This document shows positions 76-26,492 of a stretch of 47,082 bases of DNA, piece by piece; within the stretch, counting starts at the first letter, position 1, and every line of letters begins with the position of its first letter. Origin of the DNA: Candidatus Treponema caballi (GTDB lineage: Bacteria; Spirochaetota; Spirochaetia; Treponematales; Treponemataceae); the NCBI GenBank assembly GCA_018066285.1, contig JAGHRS010000045.1, positions 1-47,082 on the forward strand, given 5' to 3'. The notes under the pieces were generated by a model that had not been told where the DNA came from, ran no database searches, and saw nothing but the letters and a program-made list of their open reading frames with translations. The position numbers were made by a program, and so were the translations under genes.

Positions 76-2670
76 TTAATCCTGCACATTCCAAGTGTGG
101 CAGCCGCTCTTCACGTATAAAGGCTCATCCTTCCCGGGAAGCCAGACAGTTCCCGTACATCCTGAAGGAACAGTGACTTTATAAATCAGCGCGCTACCGT
201 TCTTTTCCCAGCAGCTTGAAACCGTTCCGCGGATTGTCTTCACGGCCGCTTTTGCGCGCTCAGCCTTATCCGGAACCTGCGGTCTGAAAATGATGTTCTT
301 CCAGCCCGGGTTCTTTTCATCCATCTGAATGCCCGCAAGATAGCGGTACAGCGTCACGACCGCGCCCCCATTCATCGGATGGCACATGGACGCCATTGCA
401 GCCTGGAACGAGCCCTTCTCTACCTTTTCCCAGCGTTCCCACAGCGTTGTCGCGCCGTTTTCAAGCATGTAGCCCCAGCTCGGATAATCCCTGTTTGTCA
501 GAAGCTGCCAGGCGACATCTTTCTTTCCATACATGAACAGCACTTCAACAGCATAGCGCGTGCAGATGTTACCTGTCGTCAGATGTCCGCCATGACGGGC
601 GATGTCATCAGTGAAGTTTTTCAAGACACCAGGGACATGCTCTTCATCCACCATGCCAAGGAAAAGCGGCAGAACGTTCGATGACTGCGAATTCGTCGCG
701 TAGTATTCACCATCAGCATGGAAGAACTCCCTGTTGAAAGCAGAGCGGACTTTTTCCGCAAGCTCAGACCAGCGTGCTTCATCTTCAGTTTTTCCAAGAA
801 CACGGGCCATGCGCGCTATCTGAGAGCAGCCGTAATAGAGGAAGCCCGTACTCATAAGGCGTGGCGGCGTATTCAGAGAAAGGGCGCCACCACCCGTGCT
901 GTCATGATCCGTCTCGCTTACCGGAGGCGCCCAGTCACCCATACTGGTAAAGCGGACAATCATGTCGTCAGAGTTACGGAGCATATATTCAACCCAGCGG
1001 ACGACAGCGGTATAGTTTTCACTCAGGATGCGCGTGTCGCCATACTGCATGTACAGATTCCAGGGCAGGACGATGAGGCTCGCACTTACAGGATCTGCCG
1101 GACGGAAGCCATAGCGCATGAACGGAGCCGTATCCGTAACGGCGCCAGTCACTTTTCCCTGCGTATCACGGATGTCGCGGAGCCACTTCGCATACAGCTG
1201 ATATAAGCGGAAGCTGTAGAGAGCCGCATCGTTACGTACAGTCATGTCGTTCAGCCAGCCAAGCCGCTCATCACGCTGCGGACAGTCAGTCGGAAGGCCG
1301 TGCAGGTTGCATCCCTCAGTCTGAAGGACAATGTCGTAAAAGCCCTGGACAGTTCTGTCACTGCAGGAGAAACTGCCCGTTTCAGTCACATCACTCCGGA
1401 CTACGCAACCGGTGAACATATCAGTTGAAGGTCGTTCCTTAAGGCCCGAAATCTGCGCATAGCGGAAACCGTGGTACGTAAAGCGCGGCTCCCAGACTTC
1501 ATGAACCAGAGAACCGTCCCCCGGTTCCCCGACTAGAGAACCGTCCCCTGGTCCCTTCAGGATGTACACATCCTCAGGATGAGCGTTTCTGAGGCTCGTC
1601 GGATCAACGCTGCCGTCGGGTTTTATTTCCTCTGCAGGCTTTATGGTGATGACATCACCCGCCTTCCCGGAGACACGGATTCTGACCCATCCTGAAAAGA
1701 TTTTTCCGAAATCGAGTGTCCAGCTGCCATCCTTTACGTTGATTATTTCCTTTACCGGCAGTTCTTCCACCACGCGGATGGGCTCAAGAACCTGCGAACG
1801 GAGTTTTCCTTCAGGCGGTTCCTTTTCTATGCACGTTGCCCAGGCACTGTCATCAAAGCCGGCGGTATCCCATCCGGGCATTTCCATGCGGGCATCGTAG
1901 ACTTCACCGTTATAAATGCTGTTTTTCCGCACAGGGCCGTCACACGTGAATTTCCATGCTTCGGGGCCTTCTGCAACCCAGACGATGCTGCCATCTTCAT
2001 ACTCCAGCCGGACAAGCAGGCTGAAAAGGCTGTCACCCCAACCAATGCCATCCTCAGCTTTCCTGAGACTGTGCCAGCCAAGGCCCGTCAGAACGCCGGC
2101 CGCATTTCTGCCTTCTGTCAGAAGCGCCGTTATGTCATAAGTCGCGTAATAAAGTGATTTCGCATAATCTGCAAAAACGTTGTTGAGGACGGAATCATCA
2201 GCTTTCCGGCCGTTTATGGTAAGACAGTTGTAACACGGAGAAGAAAGGAACGCGGCGGCAGAAACGAGCCCAGCCTTTACGGAAAACTCAGAACGGTACT
2301 GGTAACTTTCCTGATCGATGCGGATGCCGCCGATCCAGGGTGCTTTCCAGGAATCACACGGAAGCAGGCCCATCGTAAAGGTGGCTGTCTCAGAACGAAG
2401 CAGGTCACCGCCACTGGAAAGCTCAACGAGCCAGAAGTATGTAACGCCGCTTGAAAGAGGATCTCCAGCATAGATTGCGGAAAGCGCGTTTTTCTCATGA
2501 ATGGGGCCACTGTCCCAAAGCGGGTCAGAAAGCGACTTATCTCTGGAAACCACGATGCGCCAGCTGTCGATGTCATCATCGATGCCTTCAAGACTCCATG
2601 AAAAAAGGGGCTTTTCCATATCCAGGCCACAGGGATTTTTCATGTACTCACACAACACAGAGACTGTCAT
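76..2670 (-). CDS. GH78 alpha-L-rhamnosidase with repeat-derived insertion
   Basis: Hydrolyses terminal alpha-L-rhamnose from plant glycans or glycosides. The protein is about 864 residues, normal for bacterial GH78. It has N-terminal beta-sandwich domains, the family segment LPTDCPQRDERLGW that carries acidic catalytic residues, then an (alpha/alpha)6 barrel and a C-terminal beta domain. No signal peptide is visible, so it is probably cytoplasmic. An ATG at 2676 lies directly against GGAGG, so I choose the ATG at 2670, six bases from that site. The esterase gene ends 24 bp upstream, which suggests one transcript. Residues about 373-388 read GPGDGSLVGEPGDGSLV and come from two copies of the dispersed repeat. 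They sit in a loop between YILK and EVWEPRF, both family-conserved. Family call is secure; the exact substrate is not known. Confidence 0.93.
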   Translation of the reverse strand: MTVSVLCEYMKNPCGLDMEKPLFSWSLEGIDDDIDSWRIVVSRDKSLSDPLWDSGPIHEKNALSAIYAGDPLSSGVTYFWLVELSSGGDLLRSETATFTMGLLPCDSWKAPWIGGIRIDQESYQYRSEFSVKAGLVSAAAFLSSPCYNCLTINGRKADDSVLNNVFADYAKSLYYATYDITALLTEGRNAAGVLTGLGWHSLRKAEDGIGWGDSLFSLLVRLEYEDGSIVWVAEGPEAWKFTCDGPVRKNSIYNGEVYDARMEMPGWDTAGFDDSAWATCIEKEPPEGKLRSQVLEPIRVVEELPVKEIINVKDGSWTLDFGKIFSGWVRIRVSGKAGDVITIKPAEEIKPDGSVDPTSLRNAHPEDVYILKGPGDGSLVGEPGDGSLVHEVWEPRFTYHGFRYAQISGLKERPSTDMFTGCVVRSDVTETGSFSCSDRTVQGFYDIVLQTEGCNLHGLPTDCPQRDERLGWLNDMTVRNDAALYSFRLYQLYAKWLRDIRDTQGKVTGAVTDTAPFMRYGFRPADPVSASLIVLPWNLYMQYGDTRILSENYTAVVRWVEYMLRNSDDMIVRFTSMGDWAPPVSETDHDSTGGGALSLNTPPRLMSTGFLYYGCSQIARMARVLGKTEDEARWSELAEKVRSAFNREFFHADGEYYATNSQSSNVLPLFLGMVDEEHVPGVLKNFTDDIARHGGHLTTGNICTRYAVEVLFMYGKKDVAWQLLTNRDYPSWGYMLENGATTLWERWEKVEKGSFQAAMASMCHPMNGGAVVTLYRYLAGIQMDEKNPGWKNIIFRPQVPDKAERAKAAVKTIRGTVSSCWEKNGSALIYKVTVPSGCTGTVWLPGKDEPLYVKSGCHTWNVQD
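1508..1554 (-). repeat. Two RAYT-type repeat copies inside the rhamnosidase gene
   Basis: Two adjacent copies, at about 1508-1528 and 1531-1554, read AGAACCGTCCCC on the plus strand, so they are sense in the minus-strand gene. Both stay in frame and encode PGDGSLV-like peptides. The first copy has GGAAC against GGTTC at its outer arms where other copies have GGACC against GGTCC, a compensatory exchange that keeps the stem paired. Confidence 0.9.
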
Positions 2671-3672: not shown

Positions 3673-5880
3673 ATGGAAAAGCACATATCCAATACATTTA
3701 CACTGGGAGACCTGACCGCCCGGTACATCATTGAAGAAAATGGACGACCTGTCCTGGACCTCATCCCGACTTCAAAGCTCGGTGATGTTGTAGAACTAAA
3801 AAAATCAAACGGAGACTGCCTTGTCCAGTGTAAGCTGATCGGTGACCAGTATCCGACCGGCTATTCGGGCGGCGTTACGCTCAGAAACAGCGGCACCGTG
3901 GACCACATGCACCTGGTAAAGCAGGATGTACGTAAGCTCACGGATGAGATAAGCGGCAAGCCCCGCACCGAGATTGACACCATCCTTGCAGATGACGCGC
4001 ATCACACATGGATTCACACACTCGGCTTCACGGAAGGAGAGCCGTGCGTTGATTCAAAGACCACGTTCATTAACGGGGAACTGGGGGACGGTTCTCTGGG
4101 ACCAGGGGACGGTTCTCTAGTTACTGGACCAGGGGACGGTTCTCTGGTTCACGACATCATCCCCGCACCAGGGGACGCTTCTTTGGAACTGCTCTCCAGT
4201 TTCAGTCTCAGCAACATAACGCCTTTTTCTGAAGGCGAATCACATAACAAGGTGAAGATCCACCGCATCCGCAGCAAGTGGAGTGACGAAGGCTGGCTCA
4301 TCAGTGAGACCGCTGAGTCGCTCCAGCTTGAACCTGCGTGGGCGTACTGGCCCGCAAAGTCAATCCGCTACGGACAGATCGGCACCATGCCGGTCCGCAC
4401 CTTCGCCCCGTTCGGCGCACTTGAAGACACAGAGGCTGGCGTCGTGTGGGCGGCATCTCTTGCCATTGAGTCTTCCTGGCAGATGGAGTTCTACCGCCGT
4501 GACGCGGGCTTCAACTTCTCAGGCGGACTTGCCGACCGCGAATTCGGACATTGGATAAAGACCATTGCCCCAGGCGAAAGCTTTACGACGCCAACTGCCA
4601 TTCTGACAGCCAGCACCCGCGGCGTTGATGACGCCTGTCAGCGTCTGACTTCATGGAACAAAAAGTTCCTCGCTCTTAACCCCGCTTCCGAAGAAAGCCT
4701 GCCTGTCATGTTCAACGAATACTGCACGACATGGGGCACACCGTCTGAAAAGAACATCACCGACATTCTTGATGCGATTGACGGTCACGGCATTGAGTAC
4801 TTTGTCGTAGACTGCGGCTGGTTCCTTGAAGATGGCAAGGACTGGGGCAACTCGATGGGCGACTACATCCCGTCTGATACGCTCTTCCCGAACGGGCTCG
4901 GCGCCGTGACGAAGAAGATTCACGACAAGGGCATGAAGGCCGGCATCTGGTTTGAGATAGACAACATCGGCAAGTTCGCCCACATCTACAATCAGGAAGA
5001 ACTGCTGTTGAAACGCGACGGCCTGGTGCTTGAGACACAGAACAGGCGCTTCTTCGATATGCGGAAGCCTGAGGTAAAAGCATATCTCACGGAACGCGTG
5101 AACGGCACGCTCAAAAAGTACGGCTTTGAGTACATCAAGATGGATTACAACGACACGTACGGTCTTGGCTGTGACGGCGCGGAATCACTTGGTGAAGGAT
5201 TGAGGCAGGACAGGGAAGCATCGCTCGACTTTGTGCGTGCCCTGAAAAAAGACATTCCAAACCTTATCATAGAAAACTGCGCTTCCGGTGGCCACAAGAC
5301 AGAGCCGCTCATGATGTCGCTCGTAAGCCAGGCCTCGTTCAGTGACGCGCATGAATGCACGAACATTCCGGTAATCGCCGCAGCACTCCACAGGACGATA
5401 CTGCCCCGCCAGAGCCAGATCTGGTGCGTCATCAGAAAGACCGACTCGCTCAAGCGGCTCGCCTACTCTGTCGCGGCTACGTTCCTGGGCCGCATGTGCT
5501 TTTCTGGCGACGTGACTGAGCTTACAAAAGAGCAGTGGGCAAAGATTGATGAGGGCATCACGTTCTACAAGCGGATTGTACCGGCAATAAAAGATGGCTA
5601 CACCTGGTTCTTCGGCGACCGCGGCCCCGCTGCCCGTAAGCTCGAAGGCTGGCAGGGCATTCTGCGGCAGGGCGGCGGCGTCACGTACCTGACGGTGCAC
5701 GTGTTTGACAACGCACCGCGCTCGTTTGCGATTGACCTGCCGGAAGAAGTTGCCGCATCACTGAAAGAAGGCATCGTCGGAGAGTACAAGGGCACCGGTA
5801 TAAGCGCAATGCTTTCAGACAGAACGCTCACCGTCACCCGCGACGAGGATATGGAAGCGCTCGCCCTCATACTGCGATAA
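3673..5880 (+). CDS. GH36 alpha-galactosidase with 36-residue repeat-derived insertion
   Basis: Releases alpha-1,6-galactose from raffinose-family oligosaccharides or galactomannan. At 735 residues it matches large GH36 enzymes: N-terminal beta-supersandwich, TIM barrel, C-terminal beta domain. The nucleophile motif KMDYN places Asp at about residue 491. ENCASGG and the SDAHE acid/base motif (Asp about 558) are present. There is no signal peptide. TATACT ends seven bases before the ATG and no Shine-Dalgarno is present, so the mRNA may be leaderless. Residues about 137-172 are a glycine/aspartate-rich insert encoded by four in-frame repeat copies, just before the conserved LELLSSFSLSNITPF. The catalytic barrel is untouched, so activity is plausible. 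Confidence 0.94.
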   Translation: MEKHISNTFTLGDLTARYIIEENGRPVLDLIPTSKLGDVVELKKSNGDCLVQCKLIGDQYPTGYSGGVTLRNSGTVDHMHLVKQDVRKLTDEISGKPRTEIDTILADDAHHTWIHTLGFTEGEPCVDSKTTFINGELGDGSLGPGDGSLVTGPGDGSLVHDIIPAPGDASLELLSSFSLSNITPFSEGESHNKVKIHRIRSKWSDEGWLISETAESLQLEPAWAYWPAKSIRYGQIGTMPVRTFAPFGALEDTEAGVVWAASLAIESSWQMEFYRRDAGFNFSGGLADREFGHWIKTIAPGESFTTPTAILTASTRGVDDACQRLTSWNKKFLALNPASEESLPVMFNEYCTTWGTPSEKNITDILDAIDGHGIEYFVVDCGWFLEDGKDWGNSMGDYIPSDTLFPNGLGAVTKKIHDKGMKAGIWFEIDNIGKFAHIYNQEELLLKRDGLVLETQNRRFFDMRKPEVKAYLTERVNGTLKKYGFEYIKMDYNDTYGLGCDGAESLGEGLRQDREASLDFVRALKKDIPNLIIENCASGGHKTEPLMMSLVSQASFSDAHECTNIPVIAAALHRTILPRQSQIWCVIRKTDSLKRLAYSVAATFLGRMCFSGDVTELTKEQWAKIDEGITFYKRIVPAIKDGYTWFFGDRGPAARKLEGWQGILRQGGGVTYLTVHVFDNAPRSFAIDLPEEVAASLKEGIVGEYKGTGISAMLSDRTLTVTRDEDMEALALILR
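4083..4185 (+). repeat. Four tandem repeat copies inside the alpha-galactosidase gene
   Basis: Copies at about 4083-4098, 4099-4121, 4126-4149 and a degenerate one at 4167-4185, all sense. The third pairs along its full length. The fourth has GGGGACGCTTCTTTGG, two changes in the core. All are read in one frame (GDGSL, PGDGSLV, PGDGSLV, PGDASL), which suggests local tandem expansion with the reading frame kept. Confidence 0.9.
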
Positions 5881-5884
5881 AACT

Positions 5885-6035
5885 GGGACCAGGGGACGGT
5901 TCTCGCCGGTAGCCAGCGTCCATGCTGGCTACCTTCCCGAGTATTGAGCACAGCAAGTTGTGCTCAATACTCCTTGCTTTTCAGGGCCATCCGTGGCCCT
6001 GGATTTTTCTGGGACCAGGGGACGGTTCTCTGGTC
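5885..6035 (+). repeat. Composite element: repeat, three hairpins, repeat (copy 1)
   Basis: Two direct copies of the repeat (5885-5904 and 6011-6035) bracket three perfect stem-loops. Stem 1 is GGTAGCCAGC at 5908-5917 with its complement at 5924-5933. Stem 2 is the 14-bp GAGTATTGAGCACA at 5939-5952 with 5959-5972. Stem 3 is CAGGGCCA at 5982-5989 with 5994-6001. A second copy in opposite orientation lies at 15198-15344. The block ends 17 bp before the start codon of a GNAT gene. Confidence 0.88.
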
Positions 6036-6052
6036 TCAGCCAGGAGGAACAG

Positions 6053-6847: not shown

Positions 6848-6867
6848 GAGAACCGTCCCCTAGTCCC
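6847..6867 (-). repeat. Repeat copy, antisense to flanking genes
   Basis: Reads GAGAACCGTCCCCTAGTCCC on the plus strand directly after the GNAT stop codon. It is one of only three copies lying antisense between two genes of the same direction. Confidence 0.85.
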
Positions 6868-9296: not shown

Positions 9297-9351
9297 ACCA
9301 GGGGACGGTTCTCTAGTCCTCGAAGTGAATCGGGGGGGACGGTTCTCTAGT
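9297..9351 (+). repeat. Two repeat copies in divergent intergenic region
   Basis: Copies at 9297-9319 and 9331-9351, both plus orientation. The second has seven G residues before ACGG, an expansion of the G-run. Between here and the next gene a small GGAC/GTCC hairpin at about 9389-9404 is visible; nothing else is supported in this gap. Confidence 0.88.
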
Positions 9352-9434
9352 TTGCTCCTGTAGCCCTGGGAACAGGAGTTTGCATAACTGGACAAAAGTC
9401 CGCAACCAAGAAAGGGAATACAGGAGATATGAAG

Positions 9435-9851
9435 ATGAACTATAGTAAAATTGAAACAGAACAAATACATAATCTGTGGCAATTACAACTGGCATATAAA
9501 GAGGAAATCGGTGAGGAACAACCTCCTATGGAAGCAATTGACCGCCTGACGGTAGCCATGCAAGAAGGCTCCATTGAGTTTTACGGCGCATGGGATGATA
9601 ATAAACTTGTCGGATGTTGCTCTATATCAAAGGGATTCTCAACTTTTAATTATGGCATCAGCGGAGTTTTTGAGGACTTTTATATTCTTCCAGGATACAG
9701 ACACAAAGGAATTGCCCGCGAACTTGTTCATTTTGCTTACGAAAACAGCGGTGTGGAATCCCTGACCGTTGGGTGCGCCGACTGTGATCTAGAGATGTAT
9801 GGAAAAATAGGCTTTACAATCAAACTGGGAAATCTTCTTGCGTTTAAATAA
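9435..9851 (+). CDS. Small GNAT-family N-acetyltransferase
   Basis: A 138-residue acetyltransferase. VFEDFYILPGYRHKGIARELVHF is the cofactor-binding segment (given here from FEDF to VHF in the family pattern), and the protein ends with an EMYGKIGF motif. An ATG at 9429 lies only two bases after AGGAG, so the ATG at 9435 is preferred. The gene is AT-richer than the carbohydrate genes to its left, which hints at acquisition. It is flanked on both sides by repeat copies. Substrate unknown. Confidence 0.83.
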   Translation: MNYSKIETEQIHNLWQLQLAYKEEIGEEQPPMEAIDRLTVAMQEGSIEFYGAWDDNKLVGCCSISKGFSTFNYGISGVFEDFYILPGYRHKGIARELVHFAYENSGVESLTVGCADCDLEMYGKIGFTIKLGNLLAFK

Positions 9852-9858
9852 CAACAGG

Positions 9859-9879
9859 AACTAGGGGACGGTTCTCTAT
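9859..9879 (+). repeat. Repeat copy between GNAT and LRR genes
   Basis: Left arm GGAACTAG, core GGGGACGGTTCTCT, then TATATA. It is sense to both flanking genes and lies 28 bp before the start of the LRR gene. Confidence 0.87.
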
Positions 9880-9906
9880 ATATATTCGAACAGGAAAGGG
9901 TGAAAC

Positions 9907-10881
9907 ATGGCAGATACATTGCAGCAACTGATTGATTTTTACAATTCTGCGGACGAAAACGGTGTGACAAATCTTGAAAAGGTTCGTACGCATCAGAAAA
10001 TTCTGCGGCGCGTGGAAACGACTGACAAAAACAAGAGCGTGGAAGCTGTAGACAGCACAGCAGCGGAAGACGGTATTCCGAGCGGAATTGTTACGGAGAA
10101 CGGCAAGATCATCGGTTTCGGCATTCACATTTTCAACGAGGACGTGTATCCGCTGAAAAGCTTTGAAATTTACCTCCGAAGCTGTGAACTGACTGGTGAA
10201 CTGAACCTTTCCGACTGCACGGATATGGTCTTCCTCGATGTGTACCACAACAAAATCACTGCGGTGAAGTCAAAGAACATGCCTGCAATGCGTATTTTCG
10301 GAGTGCAGGACAATCTGCTTGAAACGATAGACGTCTCTGAAATGCCACGCTGTCAAGGAATTGACGCCGGAATGAACCGATTGAAAGAACTGGACGTTTC
10401 AAAGAATCCCGAGCTTGTGGAACTGTATATCAACGACAATAATTTTACTGAAATTGACCTTTCCCATAATCAGAAGCTGAAGTATTTCTACTGCCACAAC
10501 AACCGGATTACCAGCCTTGATACGCGGGCAAATCCGCTGCTCCGCCACCTTAACGCGACAGGAAACCCGATGAAATCAATCCGCTCTCTGGCGCCGCAAA
10601 GGGATGAGCCCCTTCCGCTTGAGGTGTACGCAGGAGACGGTGGAAGCGTCGGCCTGAAATTCAATCCGGTGTATAATGCACAGTGGAAGGAAACGGGCGA
10701 ATGGCAGCAGACATACTACGCATATCCCGATGAAGGATATTGCTTTGATGGTTGGTATGAAAATGGCGTAAAGGTTTCCGAAAAAGAAAACTGGACAGAT
10801 GAATACGGCTCGAGTAGAGTTATAGAAGCGCGATTTAAAGGAGGATATCAACGCAACGGGGACCAGGGGACGGTTCTCTAG
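9907..10881 (+). CDS. Leucine-rich-repeat protein ending in a repeat-encoded tail
   Basis: A 324-residue protein. Residues about 75-230 hold irregular leucine-rich repeats of the pattern LxxLDVSxNPxLVELYINxNxxTEIDLS. The C-terminal 90 residues include a YPDEGYCFDGWYENG segment like the Listeria-Bacteroides (InlB B-type) repeat. No signal peptide or lipobox is visible, which is odd for this architecture, so it may be intracellular or a fragment of a surface protein. AAAGGG lies six bases before the ATG. The last residues, DQGTVL, and the TAG stop come from a dispersed repeat copy, so the original C-terminus may have been replaced. Function unknown; a binding role is likely. Confidence 0.75.
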   Translation: MADTLQQLIDFYNSADENGVTNLEKVRTHQKILRRVETTDKNKSVEAVDSTAAEDGIPSGIVTENGKIIGFGIHIFNEDVYPLKSFEIYLRSCELTGELNLSDCTDMVFLDVYHNKITAVKSKNMPAMRIFGVQDNLLETIDVSEMPRCQGIDAGMNRLKELDVSKNPELVELYINDNNFTEIDLSHNQKLKYFYCHNNRITSLDTRANPLLRHLNATGNPMKSIRSLAPQRDEPLPLEVYAGDGGSVGLKFNPVYNAQWKETGEWQQTYYAYPDEGYCFDGWYENGVKVSEKENWTDEYGSSRVIEARFKGGYQRNGDQGTVL

Positions 10882-10884
10882 TCC
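10859..10884 (+). repeat. Repeat copy supplying the stop codon of the LRR gene
   Basis: A full-length copy, GGACCAG through CTAGTCC. It is read in the frame that gives DQGTVL followed by TAG. It also lies about 30 bp upstream of the next start codon. Confidence 0.9.
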
Positions 10885-10915
10885 TCCTCTAGTCCGACTT
10901 CCGTTGGAGGATACA

Positions 10916-11413
10916 TTGGCAAACATATTGACCGGCATCCGGATACTCTGTGGTCTGTTGATCCTGTTTTTTCCACCATTTTCTGGATGGTACTATGCGC
11001 TGTATCTGCTTGCAGGATTTACGGATGCAATCGATGGAACCGTTGCCCGGAAAACAGGTACAGAATCGGCTTTTGGCGCTAAATTTGATACTGTCGCAGA
11101 TTTTATTTTTGCAATTTCAATTGCCGTAAAACTCCTGAACGCCTTTGTTTTTCCATTATGGTTGTGGCTCTGGATTGGCGTCATTGCACTAATAAAAATC
11201 GGAAGCCACGTCGCAGGATATATAAAATATCATGAACTGAAGACTGTTCATTCTGTATTGAATAAAGTGTGCGGTGGAATTGTTTTTATAATCCCCTTAA
11301 TAATTGGATGCAGTCATGTATATCAGGTAAAGTCTTTGATAGTCATAGCAGCCTGCATTCTTACAACTGTTGCAGCAATAGCAGAAGGAATGGCCCTTCT
11401 TAAAAACAAATAA
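10916..11413 (+). CDS. CDP-alcohol phosphatidyltransferase family protein
   Basis: A membrane enzyme of about 165 residues that would transfer a phosphatidyl group from CDP-diacylglycerol to an alcohol. The full family motif is present: DAIDGTVARK, then Gly, Asp and Asp at the expected spacing (GAKFDTVAD). Four to six hydrophobic segments follow. The alcohol, whether glycerol phosphate, serine or inositol phosphate, cannot be told. A TTG at 10904 is possible, but the TTG at 10916 lies five bases after GGAGG and is preferred. At this length it is shorter than typical PgsA. It is AT-rich, like its neighbours. Confidence 0.83.
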   Translation: MANILTGIRILCGLLILFFPPFSGWYYALYLLAGFTDAIDGTVARKTGTESAFGAKFDTVADFIFAISIAVKLLNAFVFPLWLWLWIGVIALIKIGSHVAGYIKYHELKTVHSVLNKVCGGIVFIIPLIIGCSHVYQVKSLIVIAACILTTVAAIAEGMALLKNK

Positions 11414-11418
11414 AAGCT

Positions 11419-11440
11419 GGGACCAGGGGACGGTTCTCTA
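11419..11440 (+). repeat. Repeat copy between convergent genes
   Basis: GGACCAG plus core, right arm diverged to TATGCTC. The same TATGCTC tail follows the copy at 25625, so the match extends a little past the consensus. Confidence 0.87.
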
Positions 11441-11443
11441 TGC

Positions 11444-11971
11444 TCACAAAAAACAAATACTCTCTACAGTCTGCTCATAGTCATCGTCTATCAGAACAAA
11501 TGGCAGACCATTGTTCATGCACCCCTGGCGGAATCTTTCGTTTTCACGTTTCAGTAAATCCTGAGTGCAATACCCGTCATCAATACGGTTTTCAATGATG
11601 CCCTCATATTTCATGATTTCTTGATAATGCTCCGTGATGTATCTTTCGCTGAAGCACAGACAGATAAACTTTATTTCCTTCAGGTATTCTTCATCAAAGT
11701 CAGTCTTCCATGTGAAAGGGATATAGCACCCCTCCACTATCAGGTTCTGTTTGTTCTCAACAGCGGTTTTTATGATTTCTCTGGTCACAGGCCAAAGGAA
11801 TGCCGTCATATCCGCATCAGACGAGTCCGGCGACAAGCTGGTGTAGCCACTCCTGATCAGACCCATCTTGATGTGGTCCTGCGAAATGTACGGGATATGA
11901 AGCTTTTCCATCAGCTTCTGGGCGTAGCGGGTCTTTCCTGTATGTGTAGTGCCAGTTACTATGATAATCAT
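11444..11971 (-). CDS. P-loop kinase-like protein
   Basis: A 175-residue protein. IIIVTGTTHTGKTRYA at the N-terminus is a Walker A motif (GxxxxGKT). ISQDHIKMGLIRSG resembles the substrate-binding segment of small-molecule or zeta-toxin-like kinases, and ENKQNLIVEGCYIPF resembles a Walker B strand. FLCFSERYITEHYQEI may contain the lid arginine. The substrate is unknown. GGAGG lies 11 bases before the ATG. It starts two bases after the stop of the small gene at 11974-12183, so the two are probably co-transcribed. Confidence 0.7.
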   Translation of the reverse strand: MIIIVTGTTHTGKTRYAQKLMEKLHIPYISQDHIKMGLIRSGYTSLSPDSSDADMTAFLWPVTREIIKTAVENKQNLIVEGCYIPFTWKTDFDEEYLKEIKFICLCFSERYITEHYQEIMKYEGIIENRIDDGYCTQDLLKRENERFRQGCMNNGLPFVLIDDDYEQTVESICFL

Positions 11972-11973
11972 TT

Positions 11974-12183
11974 TTAATCATTCCTCCGTACAAATTCCAC
12001 ACATTTTTCTTTCATATGGATTTTTCTCACTGACCATCCAAACTCAAGAAGCTCTATCTTATAAGTCAAAAAGGAATGATCTATAGCCACACCGGCAATC
12101 TTTTCAATTTCATCATAAGATGCTTTCAAAGAATCGCTTTCCTGAGATTTTACATATTCCCATAACTTTGAATATTTGCTCAT
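11974..12183 (-). CDS. Small conserved protein (DUF7662-like)
   Basis: A 69-residue soluble protein with an N-terminal KYSKLWEYVKSQ and an FxEIE-like segment (YDEIEKIAGVAIDHSF). It resembles a small domain family often seen as stand-alone regulators or toxin/antitoxin-like partners. The resemblance is from memory and weak. TAGGA precedes the ATG. It is the first gene of a two-gene unit with the P-loop kinase. Confidence 0.55.
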   Translation of the reverse strand: MSKYSKLWEYVKSQESDSLKASYDEIEKIAGVAIDHSFLTYKIELLEFGWSVRKIHMKEKCVEFVRRND

Positions 12184-12297
12184 TCCAATTCCTACCTTTC
12201 CAGCCTCATCTTCCGGAAACTTCTACACTCCATTCATTTTAACCTATATAAACGATATTCTCAAAAGAATGTTGTTATGTATACTTCAAATTGTAGT

Positions 12298-12360
12298 GGA
12301 CTGGGGGACGGTTTTCTATGCGAAGAAGGTCCTCTGTATGGACTAGGGGACGGTTCTCTA
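12298..12360 (+). repeat. Two repeat copies antisense to flanking genes
   Basis: Copies at 12298-12319 (GGGGGACGGTTTTCT, one core change) and 12340-12360. Both are plus orientation while the genes on either side read minus. They lie beyond the GMP synthase terminator and may be outside any minus-strand transcript. Confidence 0.87.
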
Positions 12361-12524: not shown

Positions 12525-13502
12525 TCATTCCCACTCTATTGTTGCTACTGGCTTTTCTGAGATATCCCAGAGAACGCGGTTGATGCCAGGAATCTGGACG
12601 ATCTTGTCGCGCATTGCACAGAGAGATGTGAACGGGATTTCAGGAACAGTTACCTTTACGGCGTCTGTTGTGTTTACGGCGCGGATGACGCAGGCCCAGC
12701 CCATGTAACGCTCGCCCTTTCCGTTCACGTACTTGATGCCTGTTGACTGCATGTCAGGAATAGCGCAGAAGTACTGCCATGGTGTCTGTGGGAGCTTCCC
12801 AATCTCCTCGCGGACGATTGCATCAGCTTCGCGGAGTGCTTCAAGGCGGTCACGTGTGATGGCGCCTGTGCAGCGTACACCGAGTCCCGGTCCCGGGAAC
12901 GGCTGGCGGTAAACCATGTGGTCTGGAAGACCGAGTGTCTTTCCTACGACGCGAACCTCATCCTTGTACAGGAACTTGATTGGCTCAACAAGCTCGAAGT
13001 TGAGTTCTTCAGGAAGACCGCCGACGTTGTGGTGTGCCTTTACGCCGTCACTTTCCAGGATATCCGGGTAGATTGTGCCCTGTGCCAGGAACTCAATGCC
13101 TTCCTGCTTAGCGGCTTCCTCAGCGAAAACGTTGATGAACTCGCCACCGATGATCTTTCTCTTTTTCTCCGGTTCCACAACATCCTTGAGCAGGTTGAGG
13201 AAGCGGTCTGTTGCATCAACATAAACGAGGTTTGCGTTCATCTGGTTTCTGAAAACCTCGATAACTTCTTCCGGCTCACCCTTGCGGAGAAGACCGTGAT
13301 TGACGTGAACGCAGACAAGATTCTGTCCGATAGCCTTGATGAGAAGTGCTGCAACGACTGATGAGTCAACGCCGCCTGAAAGTGCGAGCAGGACTTTCTT
13401 GTTTCCTACCTGTGCCTTGATGGCTGCAATCTGTTCGTCGATAAATGACTTCGCCAGCGCTTCATTTGTGATGCGCTCCATTGAATCAGGTCTCTTTTCC
13501 AT
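12525..13502 (-). CDS. guaA: GMP synthase, ATP-PPase/dimerisation subunit without glutaminase domain
   Basis: Converts XMP to GMP using ATP and ammonia. The 325 residues cover the N-type ATP pyrophosphatase domain, with the PP-loop LALSGGVDSSV near residue 40, the GTIYPDILESDG segment and the complete C-terminal dimerisation domain ending KPVATIEWE. The usual N-terminal class I glutamine amidotransferase domain of about 190 residues is absent. Translation starts in what is normally the interdomain linker. The start is well supported: GAGGAG lies nine bases before the ATG at 13502 and an extended -10 promoter lies further up. It therefore needs free ammonia or a separate glutaminase, and none is seen in this window. 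The flanks carry repeats and a RAYT. Confidence 0.92.
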   Translation of the reverse strand: MEKRPDSMERITNEALAKSFIDEQIAAIKAQVGNKKVLLALSGGVDSSVVAALLIKAIGQNLVCVHVNHGLLRKGEPEEVIEVFRNQMNANLVYVDATDRFLNLLKDVVEPEKKRKIIGGEFINVFAEEAAKQEGIEFLAQGTIYPDILESDGVKAHHNVGGLPEELNFELVEPIKFLYKDEVRVVGKTLGLPDHMVYRQPFPGPGLGVRCTGAITRDRLEALREADAIVREEIGKLPQTPWQYFCAIPDMQSTGIKYVNGKGERYMGWACVIRAVNTTDAVKVTVPEIPFTSLCAMRDKIVQIPGINRVLWDISEKPVATIEWE

Positions 13503-13559
13503 GTATTTTTTCTCCTCAGGAGATCTGCAGGATGCAGATGCTCTTCCTTGATGCACCGC

Positions 13560-13633: not shown

Positions 13634-13702
13634 GGGACTAAGGGACGGTTCTCCAGAACTCTCACCGCTGGGGACTAGGATGGGGACCAGGGGACGGTTC
13701 TC
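13634..13702 (+). repeat. Two repeat copies upstream of the RAYT gene
   Basis: Copies at 13634-13655 (GGGACTAAGGGACGG, one core change) and 13682-13702. They are in the same orientation as the transposase gene and as the copy downstream of it at 14626. Confidence 0.88.
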
Positions 13703-13813: not shown

Positions 13814-14557
13814 ATGCCAAGAAAAGCCAGGGTCCTCTGCGATAGCAGGACATATCACGTAATGATCAGAGGTATCAACAGACAGTCCATCTTTGAAGAC
13901 GAAGAAGATAAAAGCACATTTCTTTCATTGCTGGTACGCTATAAACAAAAATGTCATTTCAAGCTGCTTGGATATTGCATGATGGGAAATCATGCACATT
14001 TACTGATAAAACTTGGGGATTTTGAACTACAATCCGTGTTCAGACGAATAAATACAGCGTATGCGTATTATTTCAATTTGAAATATGACCGTACCGGGCA
14101 CCTTTTTCAGGATAGATACAAAAGCGAACCTGTCACATCTGACAAACAGCTTCATCAAGTCTTGCGATACATCCATCTGAATCCCGTCAAGGCAGGAATC
14201 TGCTCAAATCCAGAGAAATTCAAAGACAGCAGCTATCAGGATTACTTAAAAGGAAAATCCTCACTGGTTAACACCCACATGATACTTTCGATAATGTCAA
14301 AAACGAGGCTGAAGCAATTCACAGCAGAGCAGAATCAGGACTGTTTTATGGATAATGAATCCAGACGGATTTTTCGGGTTACCGACAAGAAAGCAAAAGA
14401 AATAATATGGATGACATTCGGAGGAAATTCTGCAGCGGATTTCCAAAGACTTGGAAATCCATGGAATTATCTTGTTCTGATGAAACTCAGAAAAAAAAGG
14501 ACTGTCAATCAATCAAATAAGCAGATTAACAGGAACGTCGCGACGTATGGTCATTGA
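13814..14557 (+). CDS. REP-associated tyrosine transposase (RAYT, Y1/HUH family)
   Basis: A 247-residue single-strand DNA transposase-like enzyme of the IS200/IS605-related Y1 superfamily. The HUH motif is H60-A61-H62 within MMGNHAHLLIK. The RAYT-typical GHLFQDRYKSEPV and LRYIHLNPVKAGI follow, the latter holding the likely nucleophile Tyr119. The C-terminal 90 residues are basic and may bind the target hairpin. All key residues are intact and the frame is unbroken, so it is probably active or recently active. GGAG lies seven bases before the ATG. Same-orientation repeat copies flank it, two upstream and one downstream, and there is no paired transposase end of the IS200 kind. Known RAYTs are single-copy domesticated enzymes that act on REP hairpins. 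Confidence 0.93.
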   Translation: MPRKARVLCDSRTYHVMIRGINRQSIFEDEEDKSTFLSLLVRYKQKCHFKLLGYCMMGNHAHLLIKLGDFELQSVFRRINTAYAYYFNLKYDRTGHLFQDRYKSEPVTSDKQLHQVLRYIHLNPVKAGICSNPEKFKDSSYQDYLKGKSSLVNTHMILSIMSKTRLKQFTAEQNQDCFMDNESRRIFRVTDKKAKEIIWMTFGGNSAADFQRLGNPWNYLVLMKLRKKRTVNQSNKQINRNVATYGH

Positions 14558-14625: not shown

Positions 14626-14645
14626 ACCAGGGGACGGTTCTCTAG
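14626..14645 (+). repeat. Repeat copy downstream of the RAYT gene
   Basis: Full core preceded by three short direct repeats of GAAACCAG at about 14604, 14613 and 14623, as if the left arm had been copied several times. It lies between the convergent RAYT and GNAT genes. Confidence 0.88.
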
Positions 14646-15181: not shown

Positions 15182-15197
15182 CCTTTTCTCCTGAGGA

Positions 15198-15344
15198 AAG
15201 AGAACCGTCCCCTGGTTTCTATCAGATCCAGGGCCATGGATGGCCCTGGAAAGCAAGGAGTATTATGCACAGCTCCTGTGCATAATACTCGGGAAGGCAG
15301 CCAGCATGGATACTGGTTACCGGCGAGAACCGTCCCCTAGTCCC
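15198..15344 (-). repeat. Composite element: repeat, three hairpins, repeat (copy 2)
   Basis: Inverted copy of the element at 5885-6035. Outer repeats lie at 15198-15218 and 15325-15344. The middle stem is GAGTATTATGCACAG (15258-15272) with 15276-15290, 15 bp. Relative to copy 1 it has two compensatory pair changes, G-C to A-T and A-T to T-A. CCAGGGCCA (15228-15236) pairs with 15241-15249. The third stem (15296-15321) is imperfect here. Confidence 0.88.
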
Positions 15345-16137: not shown

Positions 16138-16160
16138 GACCAGAGAACCGTCCCCTAGTC
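16138..16160 (-). repeat. Repeat copy upstream of GDPD
   Basis: A full-length copy with a complete 11-bp stem (one T-G pair in the outer arm). It is followed to about 16184 by decayed CTAGTCCCC units. Confidence 0.88.
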
Positions 16161-18910: not shown

Positions 18911-19501
18911 CTACATGAAGATGATGCCGAAGATGGCGCCCGCAAGCACGACGATGACAGGACTCAGTTTCTTCACGGTAAGCAACAGCGTCAGTGCAAC
19001 GGCGAAGAATATTGTGCCGGAGACAGACGTGAGCGCCAGCGGGAAAGCGGAAACGGCCGTACCAGCTTCTGAAACTGCAGCGGCTCCATCATTCACGGTG
19101 ACGACGGCAATTTTCAGGACGTTCCAGGCGGCAACGGCAATCAGTCCAGCGCTTACCGGGCGGACGACATTGAACACCGTCTTCACAAGCGGCTTTTCCT
19201 GGAAAGCAGTATATGAGCGCGCGATAATCAGGATGATGATGAGTGATGGCAGAACGGTCGCGAACGTGACGAGCACGCCGCCCATAACGCCGTACAGCTT
19301 GCAGCCGATGTACGTCGCCATGTTGATGCCGATGGGGCCCGGCGTGCTTTCGGAGACAGCGACCATGTTGTAGAACATTTCAGGTGTTATGAGCCCGCCA
19401 CCGACAACCGGCTCGTACATGAGCGTAATGGCTACCTGCCCGCCGCCAATCGTGAACAGTCCTATGTAGAAGAAGCGCCACATCAAAGCAAGAAGGCTCA
19501 T
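18911..19501 (-). CDS. Chromate-transporter family protein, second half
   Basis: A 196-residue membrane protein of the ChrA half-size type. FYIGLFTIGGGQVAI and ESTPGPIGINMATYIG are the family signatures, followed by five or six hydrophobic segments. Half-size ChrA proteins usually act as a pair of opposite membrane topology. The partner ends in an ATGA overlap with this gene, so translation is coupled. The family exports chromate in some bacteria, but in anaerobes the true substrate is often unknown. Confidence 0.87.
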   Translation of the reverse strand: MSLLALMWRFFYIGLFTIGGGQVAITLMYEPVVGGGLITPEMFYNMVAVSESTPGPIGINMATYIGCKLYGVMGGVLVTFATVLPSLIIILIIARSYTAFQEKPLVKTVFNVVRPVSAGLIAVAAWNVLKIAVVTVNDGAAAVSEAGTAVSAFPLALTSVSGTIFFAVALTLLLTVKKLSPVIVVLAGAIFGIIFM

Positions 19502-20169
19502 TTTGTGTCTCCTTCGCTTTCAGTGGATAGAGAACCGTCCCCTGGTTCCAGCTCCTGCGCTCGTTCTGGAGAACCGTCCCCTGGTCCACCGGCAACTGGC
19601 GGACGGCGTTTCAGCGAGAACGCGTACACGACAAGACCGAGCACGAGAGACGCGACAACAACAAGCACAGTCGGCGCCCGGAACACGACGATCGCGGAGA
19701 AGGCAGCTGTGAACAGCAGGAGCTTCCACCAGACAAGGATTTTCTTTATGAAGGTGACGACCGCTTTGCACAGCAGCGCGGCTACCGCAATATTAATACC
19801 CATGAGCGCTTTCTGTACCCACACTATCTGGGTGAAGTTTTCAAGGAAGCTTGCGATTACTGAAATGATGATGAGGGAAGGAGTTACGACACCGAGCGTT
19901 GCAATGGTGCCGCCCAGAACGCCCGCCTGCGTGTAGCCGATGAAGGTAGCCACGTTCACCGCGATGATGCCGGGCGTCATCTGGCCAATGGCGAAATAAT
20001 CAAGCAGCGTCTCTTTTGTAACCCAGTTACGCTTGTCCGCAAGTTCGCTTTCAAGAATAGGCAGCATGGCAAGACCGCCGCCAAACGTAACGGCACCAAT
20101 CTTGAAAAAGACGGCAAAAAGCTCAAGCAGCCTACAGAACCGTCCCCTGGTATCTTTCTTCTCGTTCAT
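19498..20169 (-). CDS. Chromate-transporter family protein, first half, with repeat-coded ends
   Basis: A 223-residue partner of the following gene. FKIGAVTFGGGLAML and GQMTPGIIAVNVATFIG are the ChrA motifs. The start is taken at ATG 20169 (MNEKKDTRGRFC). The residues DTRGRF are read from a repeat in a different frame from the other genes. Upstream, the only ribosome-site candidate is the AGGGGACGG of another repeat copy. The C-terminal tail contains PGDGSP and PGDGSL from two more copies. Both ends of this membrane protein are thus repeat-built, while the transmembrane core is intact. Confidence 0.83.
   Translation of the reverse strand: MNEKKDTRGRFCRLLELFAVFFKIGAVTFGGGLAMLPILESELADKRNWVTKETLLDYFAIGQMTPGIIAVNVATFIGYTQAGVLGGTIATLGVVTPSLIIISVIASFLENFTQIVWVQKALMGINIAVAALLCKAVVTFIKKILVWWKLLLFTAAFSAIVVFRAPTVLVVVASLVLGLVVYAFSLKRRPPVAGGPGDGSPERAQELEPGDGSLSTESEGDTK
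19527..19587 (-). repeat. Two in-frame repeat copies at the C-terminus of the ChrA-type gene
   Basis: Copies at 19527-19548 and 19567-19587, sense to the gene. They encode PGDGSP and PGDGSL in a charged tail just before the stop codon. Confidence 0.9.
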
Positions 20170-20249
20170 ACAGAACCGTCCCCTGGTTCCTGACTCATCC
20201 GTCACCACAGAACCGTCCCCTAGTATACTATAGAACCGTCCCCTAGTAC
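20134..20249 (-). repeat. Cluster of four repeat copies at divergent ChrA/MATE promoters
   Basis: Copies begin near 20134, 20170, 20206 and 20230. The first lies inside the ChrA-type gene, the next three in the intergenic region. Core starts are 36, 37 and 23 bases apart. Right arms are mostly degenerate (CTGT instead of CTCT). A TATAGTATACT sequence between the last two could be a -10 box for the minus-strand operon. Confidence 0.9.
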
Positions 20250-20251
20250 AC

Positions 20252-20280
20252 TTGAAAAAGATACCGTCTCCCGCTATAAC
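20252..20280 (+). promoter_or_regulatory. Promoter of second MATE gene, near-leaderless
   Basis: TTGAAA (20252-20257), exactly 17 bp, and TATAAC (20275-20280). Ten bases separate the -10 from the ATG at 20291, so the leader would be about 3 bases. This rules against the TTG at 20252 being a start codon. Confidence 0.7.
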
Positions 20281-20290
20281 GGTACAAAGT

Positions 20291-21670
20291 ATGAAGACCA
20301 CTTCAAAGACAACGGACATAACCCAAGGCGTCATCTGGAAGCAGCTTCTCGCCTTCTTCTTTCCCATCCTGTTCGGCACCTTCTTCCAACAGCTCTACAA
20401 CACAGTCGACGCAATCATCGTGGGCCGCTTTCTCGGCAAAGAGGCGCTGGCCGCCGTCGGTGGTGGAACGGGTACCGTCGTCAATCTGCTTGTGGGTTTC
20501 TTCACGGGACTTACCGGTGGCGCAACCGTCAGCATCTCGCAGTTTTACGGCGCAAAGAACAGGCGCGACCTGCACCGGGCAGTACACACGGCGCTCGCCT
20601 TCTGCATTGCAGGCGGCCTCATCATCACCGTTCTCGGCATCTTCTACGCCCCGTGGATGCTCCGTCTTTTAGGCACTCCGGATGAAATCCTTGAGCCTGC
20701 AATCCAGTACATCACGATTTTCTTCATGGGAATCCTGCCGTCCATCATTTACAACATGGGCGGCGCCATTCTACGTGCTGCAGGCGACTCAAAGCGCCCG
20801 TTCTACATCCTGATAATTGGAACGTTCCTGAACATCATCCTCGACATTCTGTTCATCGCCGTCTTCAAGCTGGGCGTCGCAGGTGCCGCTTATGCCACAA
20901 TCGCATCCCAGACAGTCACGATGATTCTCGTCATCATCATCCTGATGAAGACAAATGACATCTATCGCCTGACGCTGAGGGACATCCGCTTTGACGGTCC
21001 CATGCTCAGGACAATCCTGCACCTGGGTCTTCCGACAGGCTTTCAGTCAGTCATGTACACGGTGTCAAACCTGATAATCCAGAAAAACGTGAACGCATTC
21101 GGCACAAACACGATTGCAGCGTGGGCTGCATACGGAAAGGTCGACTGCATTTTCTGGATGATGATCAACTCGTTCGGCATTGCAATCACGACGTTTGCAG
21201 GCCAGAATTACGGCGCAAGAAAACTCGACCGCGTCCATAAGGGAACAAAGCAGTGCCTCTTCATGGCGGCGATAGCCACCGTTGCAATGGCCATCATCTT
21301 CATCGTGGCCGGCCGCTACATCCTCTGGCTCTTCTGTGATGATCCCGCAGTCCTTGAAGAAGGCATGAAGATCATCAACTTCCTCGCGCCGTCATTCATC
21401 ACGTTCATCTGCATTGAAGTTCTGTCAGGCACCATCCGCGGCTGCGGCAAGACGCTCGTCCCGGCGCTCTTCACCTGCGGCGGCGTCTGCATCCTCCGCA
21501 TCATCTGGCTGGCGGTGGCAGTGCCTGTGTGGCCGACAATGATCACCGTCTCAGCGTCCTACCCCATCAGTTGGACGCTCACAAGCGGACTGTTCATTGT
21601 ATATTACAGATATCTTAAAAAAAGGGACTTCGGCGCAGCGCCCGTAAAAGCAAACAAATCTTTCATCTGA
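20291..21670 (+). CDS. MATE-family efflux transporter
   Basis: A 459-residue twelve-segment exporter. FPILFGTFFQQLYNTVDAII is the MATE signature in the first segment, and LGLPTGFQSVMYTVSNLIIQ begins the second half. FAGQNYGARK is conserved. The Asp in NTVDA is a likely cation site. No Shine-Dalgarno is present, and a strong promoter almost abuts the start. It belongs to a different subfamily from the MATE gene at 6977. It is divergent from the ChrA-type pair, with four repeat copies between or at the gene ends. Confidence 0.9.
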   Translation: MKTTSKTTDITQGVIWKQLLAFFFPILFGTFFQQLYNTVDAIIVGRFLGKEALAAVGGGTGTVVNLLVGFFTGLTGGATVSISQFYGAKNRRDLHRAVHTALAFCIAGGLIITVLGIFYAPWMLRLLGTPDEILEPAIQYITIFFMGILPSIIYNMGGAILRAAGDSKRPFYILIIGTFLNIILDILFIAVFKLGVAGAAYATIASQTVTMILVIIILMKTNDIYRLTLRDIRFDGPMLRTILHLGLPTGFQSVMYTVSNLIIQKNVNAFGTNTIAAWAAYGKVDCIFWMMINSFGIAITTFAGQNYGARKLDRVHKGTKQCLFMAAIATVAMAIIFIVAGRYILWLFCDDPAVLEEGMKIINFLAPSFITFICIEVLSGTIRGCGKTLVPALFTCGGVCILRIIWLAVAVPVWPTMITVSASYPISWTLTSGLFIVYYRYLKKRDFGAAPVKANKSFI

Positions 21671-25520: not shown

Positions 25521-26492
25521 ATGAAACACAAAACACTCCGCGTTTTCTATATTTGTCTTCTGCTCTTTTTCGCAGCATGTCTGTCCGTGAACCAGGGGAC
25601 GGTTCTCTATGCCCAGACTCATGTGGACCAGGGGACGGTTCTCTATGCTCAAAATGAAGCTCTCGTTCTCGGCGACGACATCCAGCTGCCAGTCTGCCCT
25701 TCCACAACAGGTGCAGGCGTTGAAAGCGGCCATGAGTTCAGAAGCTTTTCAGGTTACACCATCTGCTACCGTGAAGAGTACGAGCAGCCGGAATGGGCCG
25801 CTTACACATTGACGGCCGAAAAGCTCGTTAAGAATGCCTCCCGCGAAGACAACTTCCGCCCTGACCCGAAGATCAGCACAGGCTCAGCGTCCCTTGCTGA
25901 CTACAAGGGTTCAGGCTATGACCGCGGGCACCTGGCCCCGGCTGCTGATTTTGCTTACAGCGAAGAGGCAATGAGCGACTCGTTTTATTTAAGCAACATG
26001 AGCCCGCAGAACGGCAGCTTCAACCGCGGCATCTGGGCAAAGCTCGAAGCCGCCGTGCGTGACTGGGCCGGTGAGACGCTCATCACGTATGTGGTGACAG
26101 GTCCCGTTCTTGAAAAGCCCGCCAGCGGGTACGGCTTCATCGGAGCGAATGAGATCAGCGTTCCCGAGTACTATTACAAGGCGCTGCTGTTTGTGTACGA
26201 GGATGGCGCCGTTGCCGCTGCTGGAGGCACATCCGGTGCGGCTGACAGCGCAAAAACGCCAGCTGCTTTGACGACCGCTGGCGCATCCGCTGAAACGCTC
26301 ATCAGCGCCACGACAAGCGACGGTCAGCAGGTGTGGCTCTTTGCGACCGGCTACCTGCTTCCAAACGAAAAGGGCAGCGCCGACCTCGCGTCGTTCACCG
26401 TGAGCATAGATGACGTCGAATCGCGCACCGGCCTCGACTTTTTCAGTCTGCTGCCTGATGTATATGAAGACGCGCTCGAAGCAGCGAGGTGA
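25521..26492 (+). CDS. Secreted DNA/RNA non-specific endonuclease (NucA/NucG type)
   Basis: A 323-residue extracytoplasmic nuclease of the beta-beta-alpha-metal fold. The N-terminal hydrophobic segment ends FFAAC, a plausible spirochaete lipobox, so it may be a lipoprotein. The catalytic motif DRGHLAPAADF has Asp134 and the general-base His137, and LSNMSPQNGSFNRGIW supplies the Mg2+-binding Asn. Directly after the signal segment, NQGTVLYAQ and DQGTVLYAQ come from two repeat copies, before the mature domain. An alanine/threonine-rich loop at about 235-265 is atypical. Likely role: nucleic-acid scavenging or defence. Confidence 0.9.
   Translation: MKHKTLRVFYICLLLFFAACLSVNQGTVLYAQTHVDQGTVLYAQNEALVLGDDIQLPVCPSTTGAGVESGHEFRSFSGYTICYREEYEQPEWAAYTLTAEKLVKNASREDNFRPDPKISTGSASLADYKGSGYDRGHLAPAADFAYSEEAMSDSFYLSNMSPQNGSFNRGIWAKLEAAVRDWAGETLITYVVTGPVLEKPASGYGFIGANEISVPEYYYKALLFVYEDGAVAAAGGTSGAADSAKTPAALTTAGASAETLISATTSDGQQVWLFATGYLLPNEKGSADLASFTVSIDDVESRTGLDFFSLLPDVYEDALEAAR
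25589..25646 (+). repeat. Two in-frame repeat copies after the nuclease signal peptide
   Basis: Copies at 25589-25611 and 25625-25646, sense to the gene. They are read in a frame giving QGTVLYAQ twice. They are the last copies in the window; none follow in the remaining 21 kb. Confidence 0.9.

Follow-up and report, generated by a model that had tools for sequence, protein, structure and literature searches.

Genes and repeats at the locus

The window, by which we mean the whole stretch of 47,082 nucleotides of Candidatus Treponema caballi that was analysed, carries a transposase gene surrounded by copies of a short palindromic repeat, many of them lying inside protein-coding genes. The features on which the analysis is based are the following.

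13814-14557, plus strand: RAYT-type Y1 transposase gene in the middle of the repeat cluster, the only Y1_Tnp match detected in the genome
14491-14498, plus strand: run of eight A, beyond which lies a conserved C-terminal HTH in a frame that differs from that of the transposase domain
13640-13702, plus strand: two copies upstream of the transposase, at 13640 and 13689
14629-14642, plus strand: copy just downstream of the transposase
9300-12358, plus strand: seven further copies left of the transposase, at 9300, 9334, 9863, 10865, 11425, 12303 and 12345
3673-5880, plus strand: melibiase-like (GH36) gene with four copies (Pfam PF02065, E 1.6e-37)
4083-4183, plus strand: the run of four copies in gene 3673-5880 (cores at 4083, 4104, 4131 and 4170), all sense and in a single frame
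4126-4150, plus strand: hairpin copy in frame in the melibiase-like gene, peptide GPGDGSLV
1503-1554, minus strand: two copies in the rhamnosidase gene 76-2676, in frame, GPGDGSLVGEPGDGSLVH
19530-20244, minus strand: six sense copies in the chromate-transporter gene 19498-20379, located on both sides of its Pfam domain
25594-25643, plus strand: two sense copies in the NS-endonuclease gene 25521-26492, placed after the N terminus and ahead of the domain, peptide NQGTVLYAQ
6848-6861, minus strand: intergenic copy, antisense to the neighbouring genes
16143-16156, minus strand: intergenic copy
5886-6036, plus strand: composite element made of a REP, three stem-loops and a REP, in the same orientation
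15193-15343, minus strand: second copy of the composite
L076 11096-11240 and L085 1714-1836: further copies of the composite

Genes were called with a home-made codon-usage caller, by which the transposase was missed. The window also contains a GMP synthase-like gene at 12525-13556, with synthetase and C-terminal domains and with the glutaminase domain absent from the Pfam scan, and an ArgJ homologue at 29156-30496 (446 residues for a 400-position model).

Fold and conservation of the repeat

The strand-sense hairpin over CGG that a sequence-only reading of this DNA had placed at 4126-4149 is present and is one base longer: in the RNA fold, the plus strand of 4126-4150 forms an 11-bp stem with a CGG loop, at -13.0 kcal/mol for the sense strand versus -5.4 for the complement. 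The two inner G-U pairs announced for the sense strand are a constant feature, two G.T (or G.U) inner-stem pairs being found in 64/64 copies and G.C in none. On the sense strand these are G.T pairs, on the opposite strand A.C mismatches. The description of the repeat as a strand-asymmetric imperfect palindrome is supported, but the asymmetry is not uniform. Among the three copies folded as RNA, the sense strand was the stronger in two (-13.0 and -13.6 versus -5.4 and -4.3 kcal/mol), while both strands of the copy at 10860-10884 are nearly alike (-9.3 sense, -8.6 complement), and 24 of the 64 copies, those of the CC...TAG form, carry in the sense strand a C.A mismatch that becomes G.T in the complement. 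As isolated DNA strands, the hairpins of the repeat are weak (-1.1 to -3.8 kcal/mol).

The pattern GGACYAGGGGACGGTTCTCTRGTCC, with at most three mismatches, has 13 matches in the window versus 0 in 100 shuffles, and the core ACCAGGGGACGGTTCTCT has 29 versus 0.01 expected. Conservation spans about -6 to +17 around the core and is lower in the right arms than in the left arms, in agreement with the many decayed right arms reported earlier. Invariance is as high in the unpaired CGG loop as in the stem, which by the refuting condition named in the sequence-only reading points to sequence-specific recognition rather than to a conserved RNA structure alone, the invariance of the core being partly built in by the search. 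Neither GTAG nor any other conserved guide tetranucleotide was found beyond -6 to +17 in the 64 copies, and the repeat has no match in Rfam.

Copy number and distribution in the genome

A search of the whole 2.9-Mb genome with the 14-base core, at no more than one mismatch, gave 64 sites, and 0 with the reversed pattern. The 64 curated copies were taken from the window and from 13 stretches fetched around the 64 core sites, and not from a reading of the whole genome. Altogether 67 sites were aligned, three of which (C57 70070, C42 18882 and C5 31464) were judged to be chance or native coding matches and set aside ahead of the counts; they are without palindromic arms and inside trigger-factor-, ABC- and RqcH-like sequence, these gene names being given by eye. 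In the six stretches scanned, the sites with 0, 1, 2 and 3 mismatches numbered 35, 17, 5 and 4, versus 0, 0, 0 and 5-13 in the controls, a tally by which few decayed copies escaped the search.

The copies are strongly concentrated around the transposase, 26 of the 64 being found within 10 kb of it versus 0.46 expected. On its contig, no copy is further than 12.5 kb from the gene (9, 5, 6, 6 and 4 per 2.5-kb bin), though the contig continues for another 21 kb rightward. The assembly consists of 75 contigs, so that some of the far copies may be near. No rRNA gene was found in the assembly, and a cysS model may point to a treponeme-like host. The flanks are unique at most copy sites, and many copies are in close groups with a spacing of 21-49 bp. 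The exact 12-mer core occurs 63 times here versus once in total among six congeners, five of which are without it. No exact empty site at the DNA level was obtained from these congeners, since over the longer matches they share no more than about 65-77% identity with this genome. In viral contigs, the 25-mer was found in none and the 19-mer in one.

The composite element is about 150 bp long and has four REP-bearing copies, whose stems show compensatory changes between copies; its inner part occurs five times in this genome and in none of the six congeners, and the copy in frame in prmC has the left REP only. A REPIN consists of two REPs in inverted orientation forming one unit; the composite differs from it by having two REPs in the same orientation.

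The transposase and its relatives

The product of the transposase gene matches Pfam PF01797 (E 3.1e-16), and its best, weak match in the PDB is TnpArep 4er8 (E 0.012). Against the NCBIfam equivalog NF047646 it scores 77.6 bits, below the cut-off of 80, with four relatives at 64.7-73.3. In the alignment, NHAH and RYIHLNP, which we take to be the HUH motif and the motif of the catalytic tyrosine, read intact. Both the HUH motif and the catalytic tyrosine are needed by a RAYT, according to the relevant sections of PMC3733652. HTH_23 is sub-threshold in 4/4 relatives, the putative HTH being in frame in those of Alkaliphilus and Gracilibacillus, and the HTH of the gene itself is found only in another frame. 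The break of frame at the eight-A run could be a relic, a sequencing error or a site of slippage-dependent expression. The score below the NCBIfam cut-off and the out-of-frame HTH suggest that the transposase may no longer be fully active. As is typical of a RAYT, the gene is present as a single copy in this genome and adjoins a repeated palindrome; the comparison with RAYTs made by the sequence-only reading is thereby borne out, a Y1/RAYT gene being found within the same cluster of repeats.

The transposase gene has a foreign codon usage and a G+C content of 0.395 versus 0.491 for the window, and its protein was found in none of six congeners. It is 36-47% identical to transposases of Firmicutes; the nearest RAYT relative by E-value is that of Alkaliphilus serpentinus (43% identity), with AACCAAGGGGACGGTTCTCATGGTT about 65 nt upstream. 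On plasmids, the best RAYT matches, in Sporomusa and Acetoanaerobium, reach 44% and none covers 80% of the query. Clustering was significant in 7/7 Firmicutes genomes measured, 4 to 18 copies lying no further than 10 kb from the related transposase versus 0.06 to 0.13 expected, which with the genome of T. caballi makes 8/8; the measurement was made where positions were fully listed and left out Sporomusa and Lysinibacillus, with incomplete position lists, and Alkaliphilus, whose contigs are small. In one Clostridiales genome the CGG core had no match. Part of the repeats of the relatives have the core GGGGACAG, which fits GGGGWSAS, and the core of this genome, GGGGACGG, is off by one position. 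At three loci of the relatives (L037, L038 and L041), flanking repeats of opposite orientation occur. In two contigs (G048 C16 and G049 C173, from the genomes of L036 and L039), the CGG-type copies are almost all codirectional with the transposase, 8/9 and 5/5 within 25 kb.

Covariation of the arms

Covariation, measured by pair counts, was found between species but not within the genome. Outer-arm exchanges had been said to preserve pairing, and the one at 1503-1527 is real and keeps it, but this does not extend to the copies of the genome as a whole: at seven outer-arm positions, 63 copies have 240 standard pairs versus 229.2 (sd 7.8) with shuffled arms (z 1.4). A lack of covariation was an outcome that the sequence-only reading had itself named as refuting its proposal. 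Pairing on contig C26 (30 copies) gave a z of 0.1; only the 33 copies off this contig spoke for covariation within the genome, by a z of 3.3 at three pairs. Between species, 16 repeats of 14 genomes gave a score of 0.306 versus 0.191 after shuffling (sd 0.022), reached in 0 of 500 shuffles, and at most 0.147 in slid controls, which carry more weight because kinship alone can push the score above such shuffles. Both sides changed at six stem pairs. This set contains one nearest-upstream copy per genome, chosen by a fixed rule, and two copies picked by hand, namely the CGG type of Pseudalkalibacillus and the copy at 4126; the copy chosen by rule in T. caballi, 13689, was retained despite the decay of its right arm. 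The repeat of Pseudalkalibacillus has the same GGGGACGGTTCTC core with quite different arms (GAATCAC / GTGATTC). Since covariation is present between species and not within the genome, the palindrome is conserved as a palindrome across species, with the copies inside this genome drifting.

Copies inside genes

The position of copies inside genes, including that of 4126-4150, was overlooked by the earlier reading. Called genes contain 35 of the 64 copies, 33 in sense and 2 in antisense orientation. When these are counted as events (n=18), 16 are sense-only, one is antisense and one mixed (p 0.0013), and 12/13 are sense-only once N- and C-terminal cases are removed (p 0.0034). The 29 copies between genes show no orientation bias; with the transposase added by hand, they comprise 7 sense, 7 antisense, 10 divergent, 3 convergent and 2 undetermined cases. 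The sense copies in genes are read in three frames, giving PGDGSL in 22, QGTVL in 7 and TRGRF in 4, and 13 of 16 in-gene spacings are divisible by three. A stop-codon filter was rejected as the sole cause of the sense bias, inversion in place keeping the frame open in 27/35 cases (p 0.0036), as was a replication-strand cause for the in-gene copies of the window, a single 47-kb stretch in which copies on either strand lie in genes of that same strand.

In three working genes the repeat is an in-frame insertion. The rhamnosidase has a net insertion of 14 residues that is absent from 3/3 PDB homologues; PrmC, in two alignments of eight matches, has one of about 38 residues, which comes from the composite element; and the Rsm22-like protein has an insert that is lacking in 18/18 aligned homologues. 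Two candidates were discarded as clean empty sites: in the melibiase the region of the copies is not alignable and the insertion is undelimited, and in MetH the repeats lie in a variable linker not clearly longer than that of its relatives. The other carriers, identified by domain or PDB match, are DNA polymerase I, MetH, a TetR-type regulator, a P-type ATPase, the chromate transporter, the NS endonuclease, a glucosaminidase and a phosphodiesterase.

Two causes are conceivable for the sense bias: selection acting on the peptide, or a preference of the insertions for the non-template strand. Between same-direction genes of this genome, 7 copies are sense versus 10 antisense, and this lack of bias outside genes favours selection. 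At 14 Firmicutes loci, where only copies with at least 6/8 outer pairs were counted, the same comparison gave 39 sense versus 10 antisense, which favours a mechanism or a role in the mRNA. The two sets of orientation data are in conflict over the cause. One possible, though unlikely, reading is that an HTH-type RAYT acting in cis seeds the hairpin locally and that, in genes, the repeat enters the single-stranded non-template strand during transcription, so that the sense orientation results from the mechanism and not from selection. In that case linker peptides, in sense and in frame, would be generated naturally by a system that reached this lineage from Firmicutes along with its repeat.

Proposed mechanism and alternatives

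We consider it likely that the HUH transposase of RAYT/TIRYT type encoded at 13814-14557 serves the repeat, and that the repeat is a mobile DNA element of the REP kind that has spread locally and is tolerated in genes, where its copies are read in frame as added peptides. TnpAREP binds and cleaves the folded single-stranded REP in a strand-specific manner and, in E. coli, needs irregularities of the stem, as described in the relevant parts of PMC8266576. Recognition of the REP in E. coli requires mismatches. By analogy, the transposase of T. caballi most likely recognizes one strand. We infer that this enzyme moves the repeat: with the invariant GGGGACGGTTCT core, the irregular stem and the CGG loop as guides, it would bind the palindrome as a single folded strand, either the sense one with its G.T pairs or the opposite one with its A.C mismatches, and would then nick and join this strand. 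New copies would land mainly within about 12 kb of the transposase gene, and the local pattern, which is observed, would result from the enzyme acting near its own gene (cis action). Many copies enter genes, and the survivors, nearly always sense, are read in frame, so that peptides of the PGDGSL, QGTVL or TRGRF type are added to linkers, to loops or at the ends of proteins. This explanation has on its side the position of the sole Y1_Tnp match inside the cluster, the absence or near-absence of transposase and core in congeners, the clustering in all genomes measured, the covariation between species, the in-frame insertions and the sense bias in genes. Counting against it are the NCBIfam score, the out-of-frame HTH, the absence of a guide tetranucleotide, the MetH linker, the undelimited melibiase insertion and the weak folding of isolated DNA strands.

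In another explanation, which we judge improbable, recombination, gene conversion or tandem slippage would have multiplied the repeats, with the transposase as a bystander. The many close groups at 21-49 bp spacing and the four REP-bearing copies of the composite would be in agreement with it; the unique flanks at most sites are not, nor is the independent clustering of related palindromes around related transposases in all eight genomes measured.

A functional RNA hairpin, in line with the sense-RNA fold of the sequence-only reading, for which the repeat would be kept as an mRNA stabilizer, terminator or regulator, appears quite improbable and found no support. The sense RNA does fold better than the antisense in 2/3 copies tested, and the same-direction intergenic copies of the Firmicutes loci are mostly sense; against this, the arms lack covariation within the genome, the loop, though unpaired, varies no more than the stem, genes contain over half of the copies, the same-direction intergenic copies of T. 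caballi lean to antisense (7 versus 10) and Rfam has no match. That the in-gene copies are ordinary coding repeats, selected for a GDGS linker peptide and not mobile DNA, can hardly be right: the PGDGSL frame does prevail (22/33), but the use of all three frames and the 29/64 copies between genes indicate that the DNA and not one peptide is conserved.

Relation to known systems

The mobile REP-like element proposed here can be compared with several described families. A class of transposases with GGGGWSAS repeats, TIRYT/TIRtron, is presented in the sections of Di Nocera 2013 (PMC3733652) devoted to it. The system of T. caballi resembles it by a Y1 HUH transposase, perhaps with an HTH-type C-terminus (here in the relatives), by a core in the flanking repeats that may correspond to GGGGWSAS (GGGGACAG in relatives, GGGGACGG here) and by repeat families of moderate size that, as far as those sections describe them, are often grouped. 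It differs in that the repeats fold like REPs, cluster sharply around the gene and sit in frame in genes, that the HTH of its own gene is out of frame, and that its own flanking copies (13640, 13689 and 14629) are all plus and not inverted. Based on the HTH of the relatives and on the repeat core, and not on a tree, the transposase would belong to the TIRYT class, or subclass 2.1. In the relevant sections of Quentin 2018 (PMC6006769), REP-like sequences are reported as not found near genes of subclass 2.1.

With the GTAG REP/RAYT systems (REPtrons) of gamma-proteobacteria, the locus shares a single-copy RAYT near a high-copy imperfect palindrome, an irregular stem and a strand asymmetry; in contrast, no conserved GTAG tag was found beside the palindrome in the 64 copies, the copies are clustered and not genome-wide, and 35/64 are intragenic, whereas those of the REPtrons are mostly extragenic. 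The Rickettsia palindromic elements (RPE) are similar, by description, in being palindromes that sit in frame in genes and add peptides, as is seen here in the rhamnosidase, PrmC and Rsm22-like genes. Parts of PMC3733652 already treat RPE elements as well as intragenic REPs, some of the latter within genes for DNA polymerase I, so that this gene is a target in both cases; according to the same parts, CGTC repeats, including RPE-4 and RPE-6, are without a dedicated transposase. Here, unlike in RPE, a candidate transposase lies at the centre of the cluster, and the sense bias was measured.

Clustering of RAYT repeats around their gene was not found by a search of open-licence PMC papers nor in the relevant sections of PMC3733652 and PMC6006769, and a search of that open-licence literature with the core as letters gave no paper related by title. 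Intragenic REPs and TIRYTs being known and such clustering not being found in that literature, what is new here is therefore a variant, namely a TIRYT-like transposase whose repeat forms hairpins, spreads locally and enters genes.

For the question of how REP elements are copied, a transposase gene amid young copies that are sharply confined to its surroundings, and that is missing from the congeners of its species, offers a defined place in which insertions, strand choice and effects of distance can be followed. The locus also illustrates one way for mobile DNA to extend proteins of its host by peptides, the carriers including DNA polymerase I, PrmC and MetH. Finally, these data suggest that the TIRYT class, described as being without REP-like sequences, does have hairpin partners.
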